NCBI GenBank assembly: GCA_902531755.1
Contig: CACAFI010000001.1
Location: 1-64,000, forward strand
DNA length: 64,000 bases
Source: an uncultured Alphaproteobacteria bacterium
GTDB lineage: Bacteria; Pseudomonadota; Alphaproteobacteria; Rhodobacterales; Rhodobacteraceae
Direction: 5' to 3'
Shown: positions 20,239-40,393 of the stretch, piece after piece
How the letters are laid out: each line of letters opens with the position of its first letter
Numbering within the stretch: position 1 is the stretch's first letter
Translations under genes and position numbers: made by a program
Notes under the pieces: generated by a model
Told to the model about the DNA's origin: nothing
The model's database searches: none
The model's input: the letters and a program-made list of their open reading frames with translations, nothing else

Positions 20239-20394
20239 TCTTGTTACACACTGTAGACACTATTTGACTATTTTTTTTCTATGCCATACTTTTAAAACTC
20301 AAGGAAGCCGGCCCTAAAATGTTTGCCAGTTGGGGGAGGGCTCTTGTGTATTTATCGTTAAAAAACAAGAATAATACATGGGATGGTTTTCTTT

Positions 20395-20458
20395 GAGAAA
20401 AGTGGGCCAACATTAGAATGTTAGCCCAATTAGGGGAGGATAAATTCACGTTGTGAAT
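20395..20458 (-). ncRNA. Predicted small RNA with exposed CCUCCCC motif
   Basis: On the minus strand a promoter-like TTGAGT (20487-20492) and TAGGAT (20465-20470) with a 16-base spacer precede a 64-base segment. It has a 5' hairpin ATTCAC/GTGAAT, a single-stranded UUAUCCUCCCCUAAUU, and a hairpin GGGCUAACAUU/AAUGUUGGCCC followed by ACUUUUCU. The one imperfect pair in that stem is G-U only on the minus strand (C-A on plus), which supports the strand. The CCUCCCC resembles an anti-Shine-Dalgarno. It lies in the 313-base gap between the microprotein and cofC. Confidence 0.5.
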
Positions 20459-20500
20459 ATTCTTATCCTACATTAAATGATGGCTAACTCAAGCGTAACG

Positions 20501-20515
20501 TGACGTTAACGTAAA
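20501..20515. promoter_or_regulatory. ACGT-rich palindrome, MerR/LiuR-like operator candidate
   Basis: TGACGTTAACGTAAA is a near-perfect dyad around GTTAAC. It resembles the operators described for MerR-family regulators of branched-chain and fatty acid catabolism (TTTACGTTWACGTAAA type). It lies just upstream of the promoter-like sequence of the predicted minus-strand small RNA. No protein gene starts next to it, because cofC ends here. Confidence 0.4.
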
Positions 20516-20551: not shown

Positions 20552-21205
20552 TCAAATTTTTTTGAATAAAGATGGTTTTTTAGTTTTCAGCAACTTCAAG
20601 TCCTTACCAGTATCTAAGTCATCTTTGAGGCTATCTAAAGGGGCTATTATTGTTTTAATTGATTGTTTCGCCGCTTCCTTTTGATGCTCAAAGAATGAAT
20701 TTGGTCCAAATTTAAGGTTGATTTTTGTGGGAAGACTGAGAAACAGCGCGTTTGTCCCGAAGTCAATTGAGGGAGAAATTACCATGCATTCCGAGGCTTT
20801 GTTCCCTAAAGTAATAATTTTTTTTATATCTTTAGTAAGTGGATCAATAATATCTCCAGGGATTATAAGACTAGAATTATAATCGTTCTCATACGACCAG
20901 GTTAAACCTAAAGTTAAAGCTGAGTTGAGATTATTTGGCATTGGTTCTTCAAGCACAATAGCATTAAATTCCTCCGATAACTCTTTTACTTTTTTGCATG
21001 GTGATATTACCACTACATCCGAGAAGATCTGAGGAAATTGGCATCTTAATGTATTTAATTTCTTAAGAAGCTGAGAAAACAAAAGCTCTATTAGCCTTGC
21101 CCTACTGCTTGGAGAGAGAATGTTGGATAAACGGCTTTTCCCTTCGTCTAGGGCTCTCATAGGAATTAAGATTGTGGTTCTATTTTGATAATTTCTCAAT
21201 TTCAT
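20552..21205 (-). CDS. cofC: 2-phospho-L-lactate (or related) guanylyltransferase, F420 side-chain activation
   Basis: Activates a three-carbon phospho-acid with GTP to give the donor used by CofD in coenzyme F420 synthesis. Family motifs are IPMRALDEGKSRLSNILS at the N-terminus (nucleotide loop with Lys-Ser-Arg), IIPGDIID where PaDxP is usual, FGTNALFLSLP and FGPNSFFEHQKEA, and DDLDTGKDL near the C-terminus. At 217 residues it is normal length. It lies 11 bases downstream of cofH. Whether it uses phospholactate, PEP or 3-phosphoglycerate cannot be told from sequence. Confidence 0.9.
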   Translation of the reverse strand: MKLRNYQNRTTILIPMRALDEGKSRLSNILSPSSRARLIELLFSQLLKKLNTLRCQFPQIFSDVVVISPCKKVKELSEEFNAIVLEEPMPNNLNSALTLGLTWSYENDYNSSLIIPGDIIDPLTKDIKKIITLGNKASECMVISPSIDFGTNALFLSLPTKINLKFGPNSFFEHQKEAAKQSIKTIIAPLDSLKDDLDTGKDLKLLKTKKPSLFKKI

Positions 21206-21216
21206 TAAATTATTTT

Positions 21217-22455
21217 TTACTTTAAAAAACTTAATGGATTTTGCCCATCTCTTGAAACTAGAGGCTCAGAAGTAGTTACAACCTCATTGGTCCCGTAGGT
21301 TTTTATCGTTTTATATAAAGTATTTCTTCTAACTGGTACTTTAGACGCTGACCGAATTATATCTACCATTTCTCTTTCTGTAATTTCTTGGCCATTCTTT
21401 GATCCAGCTGAGCGAGAGATACTTTCGTTCATAAGGGTGCCCCCCATATCATTCACGCCCATCGACAAAAGGTTTCTTGCTCTTTCAGCCCCCAATTTTG
21501 TCCAAGAAACCTGGACGTTATCGATTAATCCATTTAAGGCAATTCGTGAGACAGCGTGCATAAGGTCTATTTCATTATCGGATGCACCTGGTCTTACAAG
21601 ATCGGGATTCTCAAGAAATAGTGGGGAATCGTAATGAACAAATGACAATGGAACAAATTCTGTAAAACCACCAGTCTCGATCTGTATCCGACGGATAGTA
21701 TCAAGGTGAATAGCCCAGTGCATTGGAGCGTCTATATGGCCATACATAATTGTTGCTGTTGAAGGAATCCCCGAACTGTGTGCGGTCTTGATGATTTCAA
21801 CCCAACGAGCAGTACTCAGCTTATTTTTTGTGAGTTTTTCCCTAATTTGTTTATCTAAAATCTCTGCGGCTGTTCCTGGCATAGAACCTAAACCACATTC
21901 CTTTAAATCTTCGAGAAAATCTGAATAGCTTAGTTTCATTTTCCTCGCACCATACCAAATTTCAAAAGGAGAAAATGCGTGTATATGTAAATCAGGTAGC
22001 ACTTTTTTTAACGCAATCAATAGATCTCGATAATATGTGCCAGGAAGCTTCGGATGAAGTCCGCCCTGAATACATACTTCTGAAGCACCCCTATTCCATG
22101 CCTCCTTTGCTCGCTTTATTACTTGCTCTATACTTATCCATTCAGCACCTGCTTCATCTAGACGCTTGGCAAAGCCGCAGAATTTACAACCCATGTAGCA
22201 GACATTAGTAAAATTAATATTCCTGTTGATTACAAAGCTAACGTGATCGCCATGTACCTTTTCTCTTAGCCAATCTGCAACTTGTAAAACAGCCTTTTTT
22301 TCTTTACCAGTAGTAAGAAATAATCGTTCAATATCACTCAAGCTTGGACGCCTACCGCTGAGGGATTTTTCCAGAATTAAACGAATGTCTTTTGAGACAT
22401 CCATAAAAATTTCGGCCTCGTCAGTGAATGTACAAGCCGTATTTAGGTCTTTCAT
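21217..22455 (-). CDS. cofH: FO synthase subunit 2 (tyrosine 4-hydroxyphenyl transferase), radical SAM
   Basis: Joins a tyrosine-derived radical to 5-amino-6-ribitylaminouracil, the first half of deazaflavin FO synthesis. The radical SAM cluster motif CYMGCKFC is at about residues 87-94, followed by AKRLDEAG and EVCIQGGLHP, typical of CofH and distinguishing it from the related MqnC/MqnE. The C-terminal NESISRSAGSKNGQE is also characteristic. 412 residues. It overlaps the cofG stop by four bases (ATGA), so the two subunits are translationally coupled. Confidence 0.94.
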   Translation of the reverse strand: MKDLNTACTFTDEAEIFMDVSKDIRLILEKSLSGRRPSLSDIERLFLTTGKEKKAVLQVADWLREKVHGDHVSFVINRNINFTNVCYMGCKFCGFAKRLDEAGAEWISIEQVIKRAKEAWNRGASEVCIQGGLHPKLPGTYYRDLLIALKKVLPDLHIHAFSPFEIWYGARKMKLSYSDFLEDLKECGLGSMPGTAAEILDKQIREKLTKNKLSTARWVEIIKTAHSSGIPSTATIMYGHIDAPMHWAIHLDTIRRIQIETGGFTEFVPLSFVHYDSPLFLENPDLVRPGASDNEIDLMHAVSRIALNGLIDNVQVSWTKLGAERARNLLSMGVNDMGGTLMNESISRSAGSKNGQEITEREMVDIIRSASKVPVRRNTLYKTIKTYGTNEVVTTSEPLVSRDGQNPLSFLK

Positions 22456-23630
22456 GCTGATTCCAATTTCTTAGGTTTATCAATTGGATGAAGTTTATTT
22501 GCACTCTTCGAAATATGAGCGCTAATTGTTGGAGATAAAAACTGTCGCGTATTAAATTTTGGATAAACCGTTAACCTTTCGCCTAGTTCAAAGCCGGCGT
22601 TTCTCACCATGGTAGCGAGCGCATCAATATTTGGCCAAGGATGTTGAGGATTGATAAAGTCTTTTGTCACTGGAGATATTCCACCCCAATCATTAATCCC
22701 TGCATCGATGTACTCAATATGCTCCTGCTCTAGATTGGGAGGAGCTTGAATACTGATTGATGGGCTTAAAATAATTCTAGCAAGGGCTATGGTTTGCAAC
22801 ATGTCATTTAATGAGGGTTCGGGGTGTTCCGCCATTTCTATGTTAGGCTTTCTCTGAAAATTTTGAATTATTACTTCCTGAATATGGCCGTATCGATTAT
22901 TGATTTTTTCTAATAATAAAAGAGCCTCAATCCGCTCATCAAAAGTTTCGCCTATACCAATAAGAATGCCTGTAGTGAAGGGAACTTTCGAAGATCCTGC
23001 GGCAACTAAAGTCCTTATTCGCTGAATGGGGACTTTATCCGGACACGCATAGTGGGCCTCACCTTTCTTGTTTAACCTCTTGCTAGTTGTCTCAAGCATC
23101 ATGCCCATTGATGCAGAAACATTTTTGAGTTTTTTGAGTTCATACTCACTGAGGGTTCCAGCATTTACATGAGGCAGAAGTGATGTCTCTCCAATTACCA
23201 GTTTACACATATCATAGAGATAATCAGTCATAGTGCTATAGCCAAGAGCGGCTAGAGCTTTTTTGGGCTTTGCATACCTTTTTTCAGGTTTTTCTCCCAA
23301 ACTGAACAGCAGTTCTTTACAACCGCTATTTTCACCCTTTCTGGCAGATTTTAGCACTTCATCAGGAGACATGATTTTAGCTTCAGGGTCATCTGGATGC
23401 TTTACAAAAGTACAATAACTACAAGTGTCCCTACACATATTTGTAAGTGGAACAAAAACTTTTTTTGAGTAAGTTATCATTTTGCCCCAATAAGCATCTC
23501 TTTTCTTTGAGGCTCTTTGCATTAATTCTGATAAAGGAGTATTAAAAGCCACCCTTTTATAGGTGTCAATTTCACTTTTGTCTATATCATAGAATTCTTT
23601 ATTTATTATCACAGATGACAAGTTTGCCAT
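22452..23630 (-). CDS. cofG: FO synthase subunit 1 (7,8-didemethyl-8-hydroxy-5-deazariboflavin synthase), radical SAM
   Basis: Second half of FO formation: oxidative ring closure of the CofH product. The radical SAM motif CRDTCSYC is at about residues 66-73, in the CofG context PLTNMCRDTC and TFVKHPDDPEA. Later motifs ETTSKRL, PFTTGILIGIGE and INDWGGISPVT match the family. A strong Shine-Dalgarno (GGGGGGA) precedes the ATG. It is the first gene of the leftward cofGHC operon and shares a 146-base divergent promoter region with the PPOX gene. cofD and cofE are not in the window. Confidence 0.95.
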   Translation of the reverse strand: MANLSSVIINKEFYDIDKSEIDTYKRVAFNTPLSELMQRASKKRDAYWGKMITYSKKVFVPLTNMCRDTCSYCTFVKHPDDPEAKIMSPDEVLKSARKGENSGCKELLFSLGEKPEKRYAKPKKALAALGYSTMTDYLYDMCKLVIGETSLLPHVNAGTLSEYELKKLKNVSASMGMMLETTSKRLNKKGEAHYACPDKVPIQRIRTLVAAGSSKVPFTTGILIGIGETFDERIEALLLLEKINNRYGHIQEVIIQNFQRKPNIEMAEHPEPSLNDMLQTIALARIILSPSISIQAPPNLEQEHIEYIDAGINDWGGISPVTKDFINPQHPWPNIDALATMVRNAGFELGERLTVYPKFNTRQFLSPTISAHISKSANKLHPIDKPKKLESA

Positions 23631-37583: not shown

Positions 37584-38729
37584 ATGAAAACAAATTTTGG
37601 CAAGGGACTGCTAGCTTTTTCTGAAGGTAAATATCAGCAGGCCTTTACCTTTTTTGAAAAATCCCATAAGGAAAACATTCCACCTGACAAGCATCTTACC
37701 TTGTATAATATGGGGCTAAGCTTAATTTTTTTTGAAGATTTGGCGCTTGCTGAGGATTATTTTTTGAAAGCATTAAATTATCTTCCTAATCACTCTGATA
37801 CTCTTCATTGGATTGCATATATTAATTTTAAGAAGGGACAATTATCAACTGCTCAAGATCATTATTTAGGTTCATTGAAATCAAATCCACGGTCGCAAAC
37901 AAGTATAAATGGCTGCATACATTTTTTTATTGAACAAGGGTTAAACGGAGAAGAAATAAAAGTCTTCTTGAATAAAAATGGTGTGCAACTTAAAGAAAAT
38001 GAAAATTTTTATTTGAAGCTTGCGGATTCAGTGAATGTATCGATTGATTCAAATATTAGCTTCTCTTTGATAGGAATAGATCCTCGATCTACGATGCAGA
38101 AGTCCATCAATAATTACGGTTGCTATGAGCCTTTAATGGTAAAAAAAATATTAAAAAATGTTGGAGAAACGGATATTGTATATGATATCGGAGCACATAT
38201 AGGTTATTACAGCAGTATTTTTAATAAAGTGACTAATAGTAAAGAAGTTGTATCACTTGAACCTGATTTTTATTCGAGTAATCTTATTAAAAGGAATGCA
38301 AATGAAAGAGGTATCGTAGTTAACAAGTTCATCGGAAGTGAGTTAGGCTACAATACAACCACTCTAAATGATTTATCATCCAAGCTTAACTTGAAGCCTT
38401 CAGTAATAAAGATGGATATTGAAGGTTTTGAAGTAGAAGCATTTGAAGGAGGGTGGGAAATAATAAGAAATCTGAGACCACAAATATTTTTGGAAATACA
38501 CCCAAAGTTTATTAACAAAAGAAATCCAATGGCATTTAATAAACTTATAGATGAACTTTTTAAACTTTACAACATGGAGTACGCTAGAAACCATTGGGGC
38601 CAGATTAAGGGTGAAGAAACTTTCCATAATGAATGGGAAAAGGCTACTCCTGATATTATATTTAAAATCGCTAATGAGATAATATTTAATGATCAAAAAC
38701 CTAACGCATTCGCTATACATTGTTTTTAG
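37584..38729 (+). CDS. TPR domain fused to an FkbM-family SAM methyltransferase
   Basis: A 381-residue protein. Residues 1-130 contain about three tetratricopeptide repeats (GLLAFSEGKYQQAFTFFEKS, GLSLIFFEDLALAEDYFLKAL, AYINFKKGQLSTAQDHYLGSL). Residues 185-350 form an FkbM methyltransferase with SAM motif I VYDIGAHIGYYSS and the catalytic-core VIKMDIEGFEVEAFEGG. FkbM proteins O-methylate sugars or natural products; the TPR arm probably recruits a protein or glycan partner. It stands alone on the plus strand in a leftward region. Confidence 0.88.
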   Translation: MKTNFGKGLLAFSEGKYQQAFTFFEKSHKENIPPDKHLTLYNMGLSLIFFEDLALAEDYFLKALNYLPNHSDTLHWIAYINFKKGQLSTAQDHYLGSLKSNPRSQTSINGCIHFFIEQGLNGEEIKVFLNKNGVQLKENENFYLKLADSVNVSIDSNISFSLIGIDPRSTMQKSINNYGCYEPLMVKKILKNVGETDIVYDIGAHIGYYSSIFNKVTNSKEVVSLEPDFYSSNLIKRNANERGIVVNKFIGSELGYNTTTLNDLSSKLNLKPSVIKMDIEGFEVEAFEGGWEIIRNLRPQIFLEIHPKFINKRNPMAFNKLIDELFKLYNMEYARNHWGQIKGEETFHNEWEKATPDIIFKIANEIIFNDQKPNAFAIHCF

Positions 38730-38771
38730 AGTAATTTTTATTAAAAAATAAAGACAGGGTAGAATGATTAA

Positions 38772-38987
38772 ATGAAAGTAAAAGATATTAAACAGATAGG
38801 TTTTCTAGATTGGTGGATACTTATTCCTCTTAGCATAATAATGTATTTAATTTTTCATTTATTTGCTTATTTCTTTTTAAATGTTCTTAATCATAAGCTC
38901 ACTGTGAGAAGCAAAGGTATAGTCCAATTTATTGGCTATACCATTGTTACTATTCTGATGCTAGTTTCCCTTATTTCATTTTTCTAA
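38772..38987 (+). CDS. Small two-span membrane protein
   Basis: 71 residues: hydrophobic segments at about 13-37 and 49-70 separated by a basic loop (NHKLTVRSKG). It follows the FkbM gene by 42 bases in the same direction. No family recognised. Charge distribution suggests both ends lie in the cytoplasm or periplasm together. Confidence 0.5.
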   Translation: MKVKDIKQIGFLDWWILIPLSIIMYLIFHLFAYFFLNVLNHKLTVRSKGIVQFIGYTIVTILMLVSLISFF

Positions 38988-39103
38988 TTGCAAAACCGAA
39001 AACCATTATAGAGACAGCTAACAACTAGGTGTACAAATTAGTTTTCTTTGCTATAGTAGGTTTACAAAGGTTTAGCAAATAAGACCTTACGGTTTATTAA
39101 GAA

Positions 39104-39162
39104 TGAGCAGCAACCTTTGTGCTTTCCTCCCTAACTTAGCCGCAGGGGGACGCGGCTTTTTT
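39104..39162 (+). ncRNA. Predicted small RNA with exposed CCUCCC motif and intrinsic terminator
   Basis: A 5' hairpin AGCA(g)CAA/TTGTGCT (39106-39123) is followed by single-stranded TTCCTCCCTAACTT and a clean terminator: AGCCGC (39138-39143), loop AGGGGGAC, GCGGCT (39152-39157), then six T. A weak promoter TTTAGC (39071-39076) and TATTAA (39095-39100) has an 18-base spacer. There is no reading frame. The order hairpin, CCUCCC(U)AA, terminal hairpin is the same as in the minus-strand element at 20395-20458. The 5' end is approximate. Confidence 0.55.
39138..39162 (+). terminator. Rho-independent terminator
   Basis: A G+C-rich 6-bp stem AGCCGC/GCGGCT with an 8-base loop and a run of six T (39157-39162). 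It points rightward, ending the predicted small RNA or, alternatively, the FkbM-membrane protein transcript about 150 bases upstream. Confidence 0.8.
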
Positions 39163-39186
39163 AGAGAAAGATATCATCAAAAAACA

Positions 39187-40393
39187 TCAAAACGAAGAAA
39201 CTTCAACCTGCATCTCTTTTATTTCTCGGAATCGAATTCGGTTAGCAATTTTTGGTTTTTTTGATAGGTTTATGTCTTTAAATGATAACATTAGCCTTAA
39301 AAACGCAACTTTTGCTTCTAGACGCGCCAGATTAATACCAGCACATATATGAATACCTAGTCCAAAAGATAAATGTCTGTTTGGTGACCTTGATATATCG
39401 AAGGTTTCAGGCTCAAAAAACTGTAAGGGATCTCTGTTGGCTCCGGCAATAATCATATGAACTGGAGTTCCCTTTTGAATTGTTACATCTCCTAGCATTG
39501 TTGTTTCCAAACAACGCCTATTATTAATTTGAATTGGTGGTTGAAATCTGAGAATTTCATCGATAGCTGTATCAATTCTTTCAGGCTCTTTTTGTAATAA
39601 TCTATATTGATCTCTGTGGTTAATAAGTTCATTAAGCCCATGCGATAACATATTTGTCGACGTTTCATGGCCTGCATTCAACATAAAAATGCATTGATGA
39701 AGTAGCTCTGTCTCAGATAATTCCAGACCTTCAGCTTCGATCAAAAGTGAAAGAATTTCATTAGATTTATTAATATCTTTATGAGTTTTTCGAAAATTTA
39801 TCTGATCTTTAAGGTATTGCTTGAAGTTCAAAACAGCAGCCGAACCCTCATCTAACTGTTTGGGTGTAAGTTTAGGTTCTAACGCCCCAAGAATTTTATG
39901 TGCCCAATCTCTAATTAAATTTCGATCCTCGCTTGGTATACCCAGAACGCTACAAACTACATCTACTGGAAGTCGAAAGGAAAAATCTGAAACAAAATCA
40001 AAAGTTTTTTTCTCTTGCATCATGACTAAATAACTATCCACTAACTTGGCGATATCTTTCTCTAAACCAAGAATAGCTTTAGGTGTAAAAGCCTGCTGAA
40101 AAATTTTTCTTATTCGCGTATGATCTGGCGGATCCACAAAAACGACGGAGGTTGTATGGTGCTCAAAAAGGGGTGATGAACCAAATTTTGCCCCAAATTC
40201 TGTTTTTTTTGTCAGAGCTCCAAATTCTAAAATTTCTATAAACACTAACTATATCTTTATATGTCGTTAATACATAGGAGCCATCGGAGTTTTTATGAAT
40301 AGGTGATTTTTCTCTGAGTAAATTATAATAGGTATATAAGTTGTCAATAAAGTCATTTGGGGGATTATAGAGGTCAAAAGATTCGGTGCTCAT
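39187..40393 (-). pseudogene. Cytochrome P450 split by a frameshift in an A8 run
   Basis: The N-terminal frame (from 40393) gives FDLYNPPNDFIDNLYTYY, SYVLTTYKDIVSVYRN and WSSDKK; the rest follows in another frame with TEFGAKFGSSPLFEHHTTS, AGHETSTN (I-helix), EILRF (ExxR) and heme loop SFGLGIHICAGINLAR. The switch falls in eight consecutive A (T8 on plus at 40203-40210); seven would restore one frame of about 401 codons. All catalytic motifs are intact, so slippage at the A run or a homopolymer sequencing error may rescue the protein. Confidence 0.85.

Follow-up and report, generated by a model that had tools for sequence, protein, structure and literature searches.

A conserved single-copy locus in uncultured Rhodobacteraceae that probably encodes a lineage-specific small RNA of the alphaR8 type

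The window (the whole stretch of DNA that was analysed, 64,000 nucleotides) carries on its plus strand a short element that lies between an open reading frame of 71 amino acids and a convergent cytochrome P450 gene, whose stop is at 39187 on the minus strand. The features of this region, together with a comparison element at 20.4 kb, are as follows.

38772-38987, plus strand: open reading frame of 71 aa, upstream neighbour; in the same 15 of 22 genomes as the RNA; no Pfam match
39030-39057, plus strand: promoter-like site, TGTACA, 16 nt, TATAGT, with TG ahead of the second hexamer; 9 of 12 matches
39064-39162, plus strand: predicted small RNA of about 100 nt, its start placed from the promoter-like site and its end from the T run
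39065-39072, plus strand: 5' arm, CAAAGGTT, of a long-range helix in the RNAalifold consensus
39112-39119, plus strand: 3' arm, AACCTTTG, of the same consensus helix, stopping 3 nt 5' of the 10-mer
39123-39132, plus strand: TTTCCTCCCT, anti-Shine-Dalgarno 10-mer, an exact match to the alphaR8 core given in PMC12559287
39138-39162, plus strand: intrinsic terminator, AGCCGC/GCGGCT stem and six T; the stem covaries in the orthologs
39144-39151, plus strand: terminator loop AGGGGGAC, nearly invariant and complementary to the 10-mer
39187-40393, minus strand: cytochrome P450 gene (PF00067), convergent neighbour, split over two frames in the window copy
20389-20464, minus strand: related alphaR8-type RNA at 20.4 kb, comparison element (E 2.2e-5 with the model R2, described below)

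The strings and the intrinsic terminator that an earlier note on this DNA had described at 39104-39162 are all present there. AGCA (39106-39109), g (39110), CAA (39111-39113), TTG (39117-39119) and TGCT (39120-39123) are read in the window sequence; TTTCCTCCCT at 39123-39132 is followed by AACTT; AGCCGC (39138-39143) and GCGGCT (39152-39157) enclose the loop at 39144-39151, and six T occupy 39157-39162. The sole terminator-like site called in 38500-39600 is AGCCGC-AGGGGGAC-GCGGCT-T6, a call which is not significant by itself (mean 0.7 in shuffles). The minimum free energy of the 66-nt stretch is ordinary with respect to shuffles (z -0.26), single-sequence fold energies being uninformative at this element; the promoter scan is not significant alone (3 such sites in the region, 4.0 expected), and the 16 CCTCCC of the window are no enrichment over the 13.7 expected. 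Its position relative to terminators is unusual: two of the 16 (39126 and 20439) stand no more than 25 bases upstream of a terminator-like site, as against 3 of 199 for the other five-C hexamers, and the one identified among these three, CTCCCC at 20438, is the 20.4-kb element shifted by one base. The two CCTCCC places are the two elements that the earlier note had linked. The element is beyond chance because it is conserved: TTTCCTCCCTAAC is found exactly once per genome in 13 of the 22 genomes of the genus (the reversed control pattern has 7 matches in the 22 genomes), and 15 orthologs are syntenic.

BLAST on a set of 101 genomes (the source genome and 100 relatives) gave 13 matches at E < 1e-11 besides the source genome, all in the same genus. 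The 71-aa open reading frame and the P450 gene stand beside the element in 15 of 16 checked loci, that of G021 included; a match in G009 (L016) was rejected as an ortholog, being a 25-base chance BLAST match with neither neighbour present. G001 carries TTTCCTCCCC at the position of the core, and G018 is without the core but keeps the rest of the element. A covariance model, R1, was built from 14 orthologs, the G021 ortholog (L039) being left out of the alignment, of R1 and of the identity profile; its match to the window copy, which is one of the 14 training rows, spans 39062-39163. Used for the covariance search that the earlier note had proposed, R1 finds the element in 15 of the 22 genus genomes (E <= 6.6e-5), namely in the 14 whose copies it was built from and in G021, whose ortholog, outside the training, scores E 6.6e-5. 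At E <= 0.01 it finds the element in none of the 392 family genomes outside the genus (394 family genomes were searched), where weak relatives could be missed because stricter filters were used and 10 candidates were scored per genome. The 71-aa open reading frame and the P450 orthologs (at least 66% identity) are present in the identical 15 of 22 genomes as the RNA; since the genus genomes are incomplete (58-91%), absence from the other seven is not proven for each. The pattern CTTTGNNNTTTCCTCCCTAACT occurs in 11 public records, nine of them labelled uncultured Alphaproteobacteria bacterium, one Rhodobacteraceae bacterium and one Syntrophomonadaceae bacterium; the match on the Syntrophomonadaceae contig (L079) was rejected as a relative, as no T-run terminator follows it in the stretch examined. 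The dispersed family proposed in the earlier note holds for the wider group of CCUCCC RNAs and fails for the element at 39104-39162 itself, which is single copy per genome and was rejected as a repeated, dispersed sequence.

The mean pairwise identity of the 14 orthologs, G021 not among them, is 0.44 over 38988-39025, 5' of the promoter-like stretch, and then 0.80 over 39028-39037, around the first hexamer, 0.72 over 39038-39047, around the spacer, and 0.64 over 39048-39057, around the second hexamer. It is 0.29 just 3' of the promoter-like stretch, 0.86 over the 5' arm (39065-39072), 0.62 inside, 0.83 over 39104-39120 and 0.89 over the 10-mer; the two sides of the terminator stem have 0.80 and 0.76, the loop 0.97 and the sequence after the terminator 0.57. 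Conservation peaks in the promoter-like hexamers, the 5' arm, the 10-mer and the terminator and drops in the spacers, a profile which fits a gene that has a promoter of its own and yields an RNA about 100 nt long. The element looks real, conserved and of a known kind. The architecture had been held to be the conserved part, and at this locus it is the letters that are conserved, as the values for the 10-mer and the loop indicate; similarly, the conservation of the promoter-like stretch and of the 5' arm suggests an RNA of about 100 bases in place of the expected 57.

The alignment consensus obtained with RNAalifold contains two helices, 39065-39072/39112-39119 and the terminator. A three-helix structure with linker-loop pairing beats shuffles, its percentage of paired cells being reached by 2 of 500 and its covariation score by 1 of 500; this excess comes mainly from the terminator, where four of the five double-change cells are found. 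The terminator stem covaries in the orthologs (G-C to A-U at columns 77-97). The long-range helix is paired in 96.4% of cells, mostly with G-U changes and one double change, and taken alone its covariation is not above shuffles; outside the alignment, G021 has a 10-bp helix, ACCAAGGGTT/AATCTTTGGT, of different letters and with the same relation to the core. The AGCA/TGCT hairpin of the earlier note was rejected as a conserved structure, its pair 47-60 being broken in 9 of the 11 orthologs that have letters there and no pair being changed on both sides. The predicted helix that stops 3 nt upstream of the core is long-range, and the nearby local hairpin is not conserved. The mean unpaired probability of the 10-mer is 0.80 in the window copy and ranges from 0.23 to 1.0 over the 13 of 14 aligned sequences having UUUCCUCCC.

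Regarding the neighbours, the 71-aa protein shows by eye two hydrophobic stretches, is well conserved in the 15 genomes carrying the RNA and matches no Pfam family at E <= 0.01. The open frame of the P450 gene has 353 aa in the window; the relatives have 14 orthologs, one of them truncated at the end of its contig and the other 13 with 402-416 aa. The split over two frames is either a real lesion or an assembly error. We found no report of the 39104-39162 locus in a search of the open-licence literature on MmgR, RF00519 and related sRNAs, and the word suhB is absent from the main text of a survey of Ruegeria pomeroyi sRNAs (PMC4809877).

According to PMC12559287, alphaR8 RNAs have a weak hairpin followed by single-stranded UUUCCUCCCU, and a Rho-independent terminator; MmgR was the only member characterised before SisA-D, SisA pairs with target mRNAs, and CrfA, which has a G/A-rich loop complementary to the core, sequesters SisA with the help of Hfq. 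PMC1273637 presents suhB as a multi-copy noncoding RNA that has a promoter and a terminator, with a short 5' helix and with conserved letters that are unstructured. The linker of the element is exactly UUUCCUCCCU, i.e. the published alphaR8 (suhB/MmgR/SisA) core, correctly placed, with a Rho-independent terminator downstream of it. With MmgR of S. meliloti, SisA-D of C. crescentus and suhB (RF00519) the element therefore shares the exact linker core, as well as, by prediction, a helix just upstream, an intrinsic terminator just downstream and related copies elsewhere in the genome. It differs from them in a 5' half that exceeds the RF00519 match by about 40 nt, in a helix that closes over a loop of about 40 nt where alphaR8 has a short hairpin, in a conserved G-rich terminator loop and in a score below the Rfam cut-off; moreover its neighbours are the 71-aa open reading frame and the P450 gene, whereas according to PMC12559287 the neighbour in most species is an N-formylglutamate amidohydrolase gene.

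RF00519 aligns in register with the window copy from 39106 on, at 12.6 bits against a cut-off of 41 (E 1.6 when 111 bases are searched; in the whole genome E 5.18 and rank 5 of 6), a match which alone means nothing because control genomes match RF00519 at a maximum E of 10 almost everywhere (13 of 14 and 14 of 14). When the 15 orthologs are searched at E <= 10 only two match, that of G021 with 27.4 bits (E 0.0041) and that of G020 with 17.6 bits (E 1.3), the window copy not being among them. On the G021 ortholog no Rfam family scores better than RF00519, which aligns there in the register seen in the weak window-copy match; since BjrC68 (22.0 bits, E 0.0072, cut-off 39) and CsrB (E 0.058) score close, part of the G021 match is the terminator. 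The 41-bit cut-off is a library threshold rather than a biological trait: among 11 other alphaR8-type RNAs of the genus one passes it (42.1 bits) and the other ten have 30.0-38.9 bits. We call the element alphaR8-type, and not a certified RF00519 member, because it stays below 41 bits (12.6, and 27.4 for its best ortholog).

A second model, R2, was built from these 11 RNAs, with neither window element included. In a search over 1704 bases it recovers 13 of the 15 orthologs at E <= 0.025, all on the right strand, and misses those of G012 and G018; across the window it ranks the 20.4-kb element first (E 2.2e-5) and the 39104-39162 element fourth (E 0.43), two apparent chance hits outranking the latter. 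The relation between the two elements, which the earlier note had drawn from their layout, gains support from this model. Conversely, R1 has 13 non-orthologous hits at E <= 1, of which five are CCUCCC-terminator RNAs (L123, L124, L127, L128 and L131) and eight are not of that type.

The 20.4-kb element, on the minus strand, carries CCTCCCCTAA before a terminator in a like layout and has no RF00519 match at E <= 10. A box, TACGTTAACGTCACGTTA, lies at 20496-20513 (minus strand), about 73 bases before its CCTCCCC, and this distance is 73 in six of seven loci of the 20.4-kb type and 74 in the seventh, G011. The region 20330-20515 (minus strand) is a conserved double unit, in which the box is followed by ATCCTCCCCTAATT and a terminator-like hairpin and, about 100 nt on, by a GCCCTCCCCCAACTGG unit; both units are present in all seven loci read. 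The box TACGTTAACGTNACGTTA, with at most one mismatch, was found in 21 of the 22 genus genomes at 33 sites (1-3 per genome; reversed control, 0), and at each of the 10 sites (of 33) that were read it is followed by an RNA-like unit with CCTCCC. Judged by sequence, the box appears to be a regulator site dedicated to alphaR8-type RNAs. At 20552-23630 (minus strand) there are F420 pathway genes, CofC-like and CofH-like by Pfam, an adjacent open reading frame being CofG-like by eye only. As the earlier note had anticipated, the genome has further RNAs with CCUCCC before a terminator, at G000:C12:27737, which R2 supports (E 8.5e-7), and at G000:C67:1617. The latter (L101, 1617-1692), together with L067, L068 and L073, represents another RNA type, in which ACCUCCCUGUUG(G)ACU stands ahead of a terminator of the GCCGAG type and which is present in the source genome and in other genera of the family; it is below the RF00519 cut-off, and R2 does not find it at E <= 1.

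Two further groups of RNAs were compared. AbcR (alphar15) sRNAs, as portrayed in PMC7143759, have a partial similarity to suhB and a CU-rich anti-Shine-Dalgarno motif, and the element resembles them in this motif and in a length of about 100-120 nt. AbcR RNAs have three stem-loops and two anti-Shine-Dalgarno motifs, whereas the element has a single CU-rich motif in 39064-39162 and two consensus helices, and it was not assigned to this group. In Cuckoo/CcsR and alphar14 RNAs the CCUCCUCCC motif is exposed in hairpin loops; the element was not placed there either, CCTCCTCCC being absent from 39064-39162 and CCTCCC lying between the consensus helices.

Taken together, the locus is probably a gene, present once per genome, whose product is a trans-acting small RNA about 100 nt long and belongs, as a lineage-specific variant, to the alphaR8 (suhB/MmgR/SisA-D) type. 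The element, its conservation and synteny, the exact core and the statistical relation of most orthologs to the alphaR8-type RNAs of the genus are observed by computation; the use of the promoter, the ends of the RNA, its binding to Hfq, its pairing with ribosome binding sites and repression are what we infer. The discrete small RNA with an anti-Shine-Dalgarno core that the earlier note had imagined gains support, as a prediction, from this conserved syntenic element with its exact core. The RNA would be transcribed from its own sigma-70-like promoter and would end at the intrinsic terminator; the 5' arm would fold back on AACCUUU, leaving UUUCCUCCCUAACU single-stranded between the two helices. 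With Hfq, on which the RNA probably depends, the linker could pair with G/A-rich Shine-Dalgarno regions (the complement of the core is AGGGAGGAAA), and pairing over these regions would repress translation. The most likely role is that of a trans-acting, Hfq-assisted anti-Shine-Dalgarno repressor, the action on ribosome binding sites being proposed because of the alphaR8 family and of this complementarity.

Target prediction, also suggested in the earlier note, was run with the pattern AGGGAGGAAA-N0-9-ATG on 22 genomes and gave no clear enrichment (32 matches against 25 control matches); no such leader was found in the source genome, G000. Among 30 matches fetched as loci, 10 have an open frame of at least 25 codons, and the other 20 have open frames of 2-15 codons and are probably inside genes. 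The real-frame leaders belong to three SBP_bac_5 genes (L190, L192, L217), three Peripla_BP_6 genes (L202, L210, L211), two VWA genes (L204, L207), one UvrD-like gene (L197) and one other (L216), Pfam having been run on L190, L202, L204 and L197 as representatives and the rest grouped by eye. Six of the 10 precede ABC-transporter-type solute-binding proteins, a class regulated by AbcR RNAs according to PMC7143759; being two gene types with near-identical copies, they are too few for evidence, and the SBP_bac_5 leader is no evidence of selection because its gene occurs in only 3 of the 22 genomes, where it is 99-100% identical.

Other explanations of the locus have to be weighed. An independent anti-Shine-Dalgarno sRNA, no relative of alphaR8, could have converged on UUUCCUCCCU, and this is easily conceived since CCUCC is complementary to any Shine-Dalgarno sequence; most of the score comes from the linker, the terminator and the T run, which could converge, and the weak scores of the window copy with RF00519 and R2, the near equality of BjrC68 and RF00519 on G021 and the different 5' half are all in keeping with such an origin. 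The exact 10-mer and its spacing to the terminator, the recovery of 13 of 15 orthologs by R2 and the first rank of RF00519 on G021 speak for kinship instead, and convergence appears rather unlikely. That the locus holds nothing more than a terminator for the genes upstream, preceded by chance by a C-rich string, is very improbable: a functional-looking terminator does lie downstream of genes, CCTCCC alone is not enriched and the fold energy is unremarkable, but the linker and the 5' arm are as conserved as the terminator in the 14 orthologs and 13 of 22 genomes have a single copy each, and owing to the conservation profile this reading was rejected in its simple form.

An unlikely origin, which is compatible with an alphaR8 one, is that of a 3'-UTR-derived sRNA, cut from the mRNA of the 71-aa open reading frame (or of FkbM-ORF71), sharing its terminator and lacking a separate promoter. 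Rhodobacter is known to have UTR-derived sRNAs (PMC8625941); the RNA is on the same strand about 77 nt 3' of the stop of the open reading frame, the two are in exactly the same 15 of 22 genomes, and the promoter scan alone is not significant. The promoter-like stretch is, however, more conserved than its surroundings, the gap between open reading frame and RNA is about 376 nt in G021, where the RNA is still kept, and the P450 gene co-occurs equally strictly, so that the co-occurrence reflects the whole locus. The probable reading remains that of an alphaR8-type gene with a promoter of its own.

The unusual trait of the element is its nearly invariant G-rich terminator loop, complementary to the core. 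The loop is AGGGGGAC in 11 of the 14 aligned sequences, AGAGGGAC in two and ACGGGGGAC in one, and it is more conserved than the stem (0.97 versus 0.80 and 0.76); GGGG occurs in the loop of 1 of 66 terminator-like sites in the window, and the terminator loop of the 20.4-kb type varies, with five versions in seven loci. In pair 71-86 two G-to-A changes (third loop letter) and a U-to-C change in G001 all keep a standard pair. The loop is predicted to form duplexes of -11.0 and -13.2 kcal/mol with the two 20.4-kb linkers and of -10.2 kcal/mol with its own linker, a complementarity which is not specific, since the reversed linker pairs nearly as well (-9.6 kcal/mol). G021 is without the G-rich loop, and G018 has the loop without the core. 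In Caulobacter the G-rich loop complementary to the alphaR8 core belongs to CrfA, a separate sponge RNA (PMC12559287), whereas here the loop, a putative sponge, is in the terminator of the core-bearing RNA itself. A bifunctional sRNA, combining the alphaR8 core with a G-rich sponge for that core, is conceivable and quite unlikely: the loop would pair with its own linker (as a pseudoknot or a dimer) or capture siblings such as the 20.4-kb RNA, and the RNA would titrate its own family, as CrfA does.

AlphaR8 RNAs are widespread in Alphaproteobacteria. If the built-in sponge were true, a single RNA would unite the regulator with its sponge. A divergent member below the cut-off, with relatives elsewhere in a small genome, suggests that annotation misses part of the regulatory layer of uncultured Rhodobacteraceae, which we take to be bacteria of the surface ocean.
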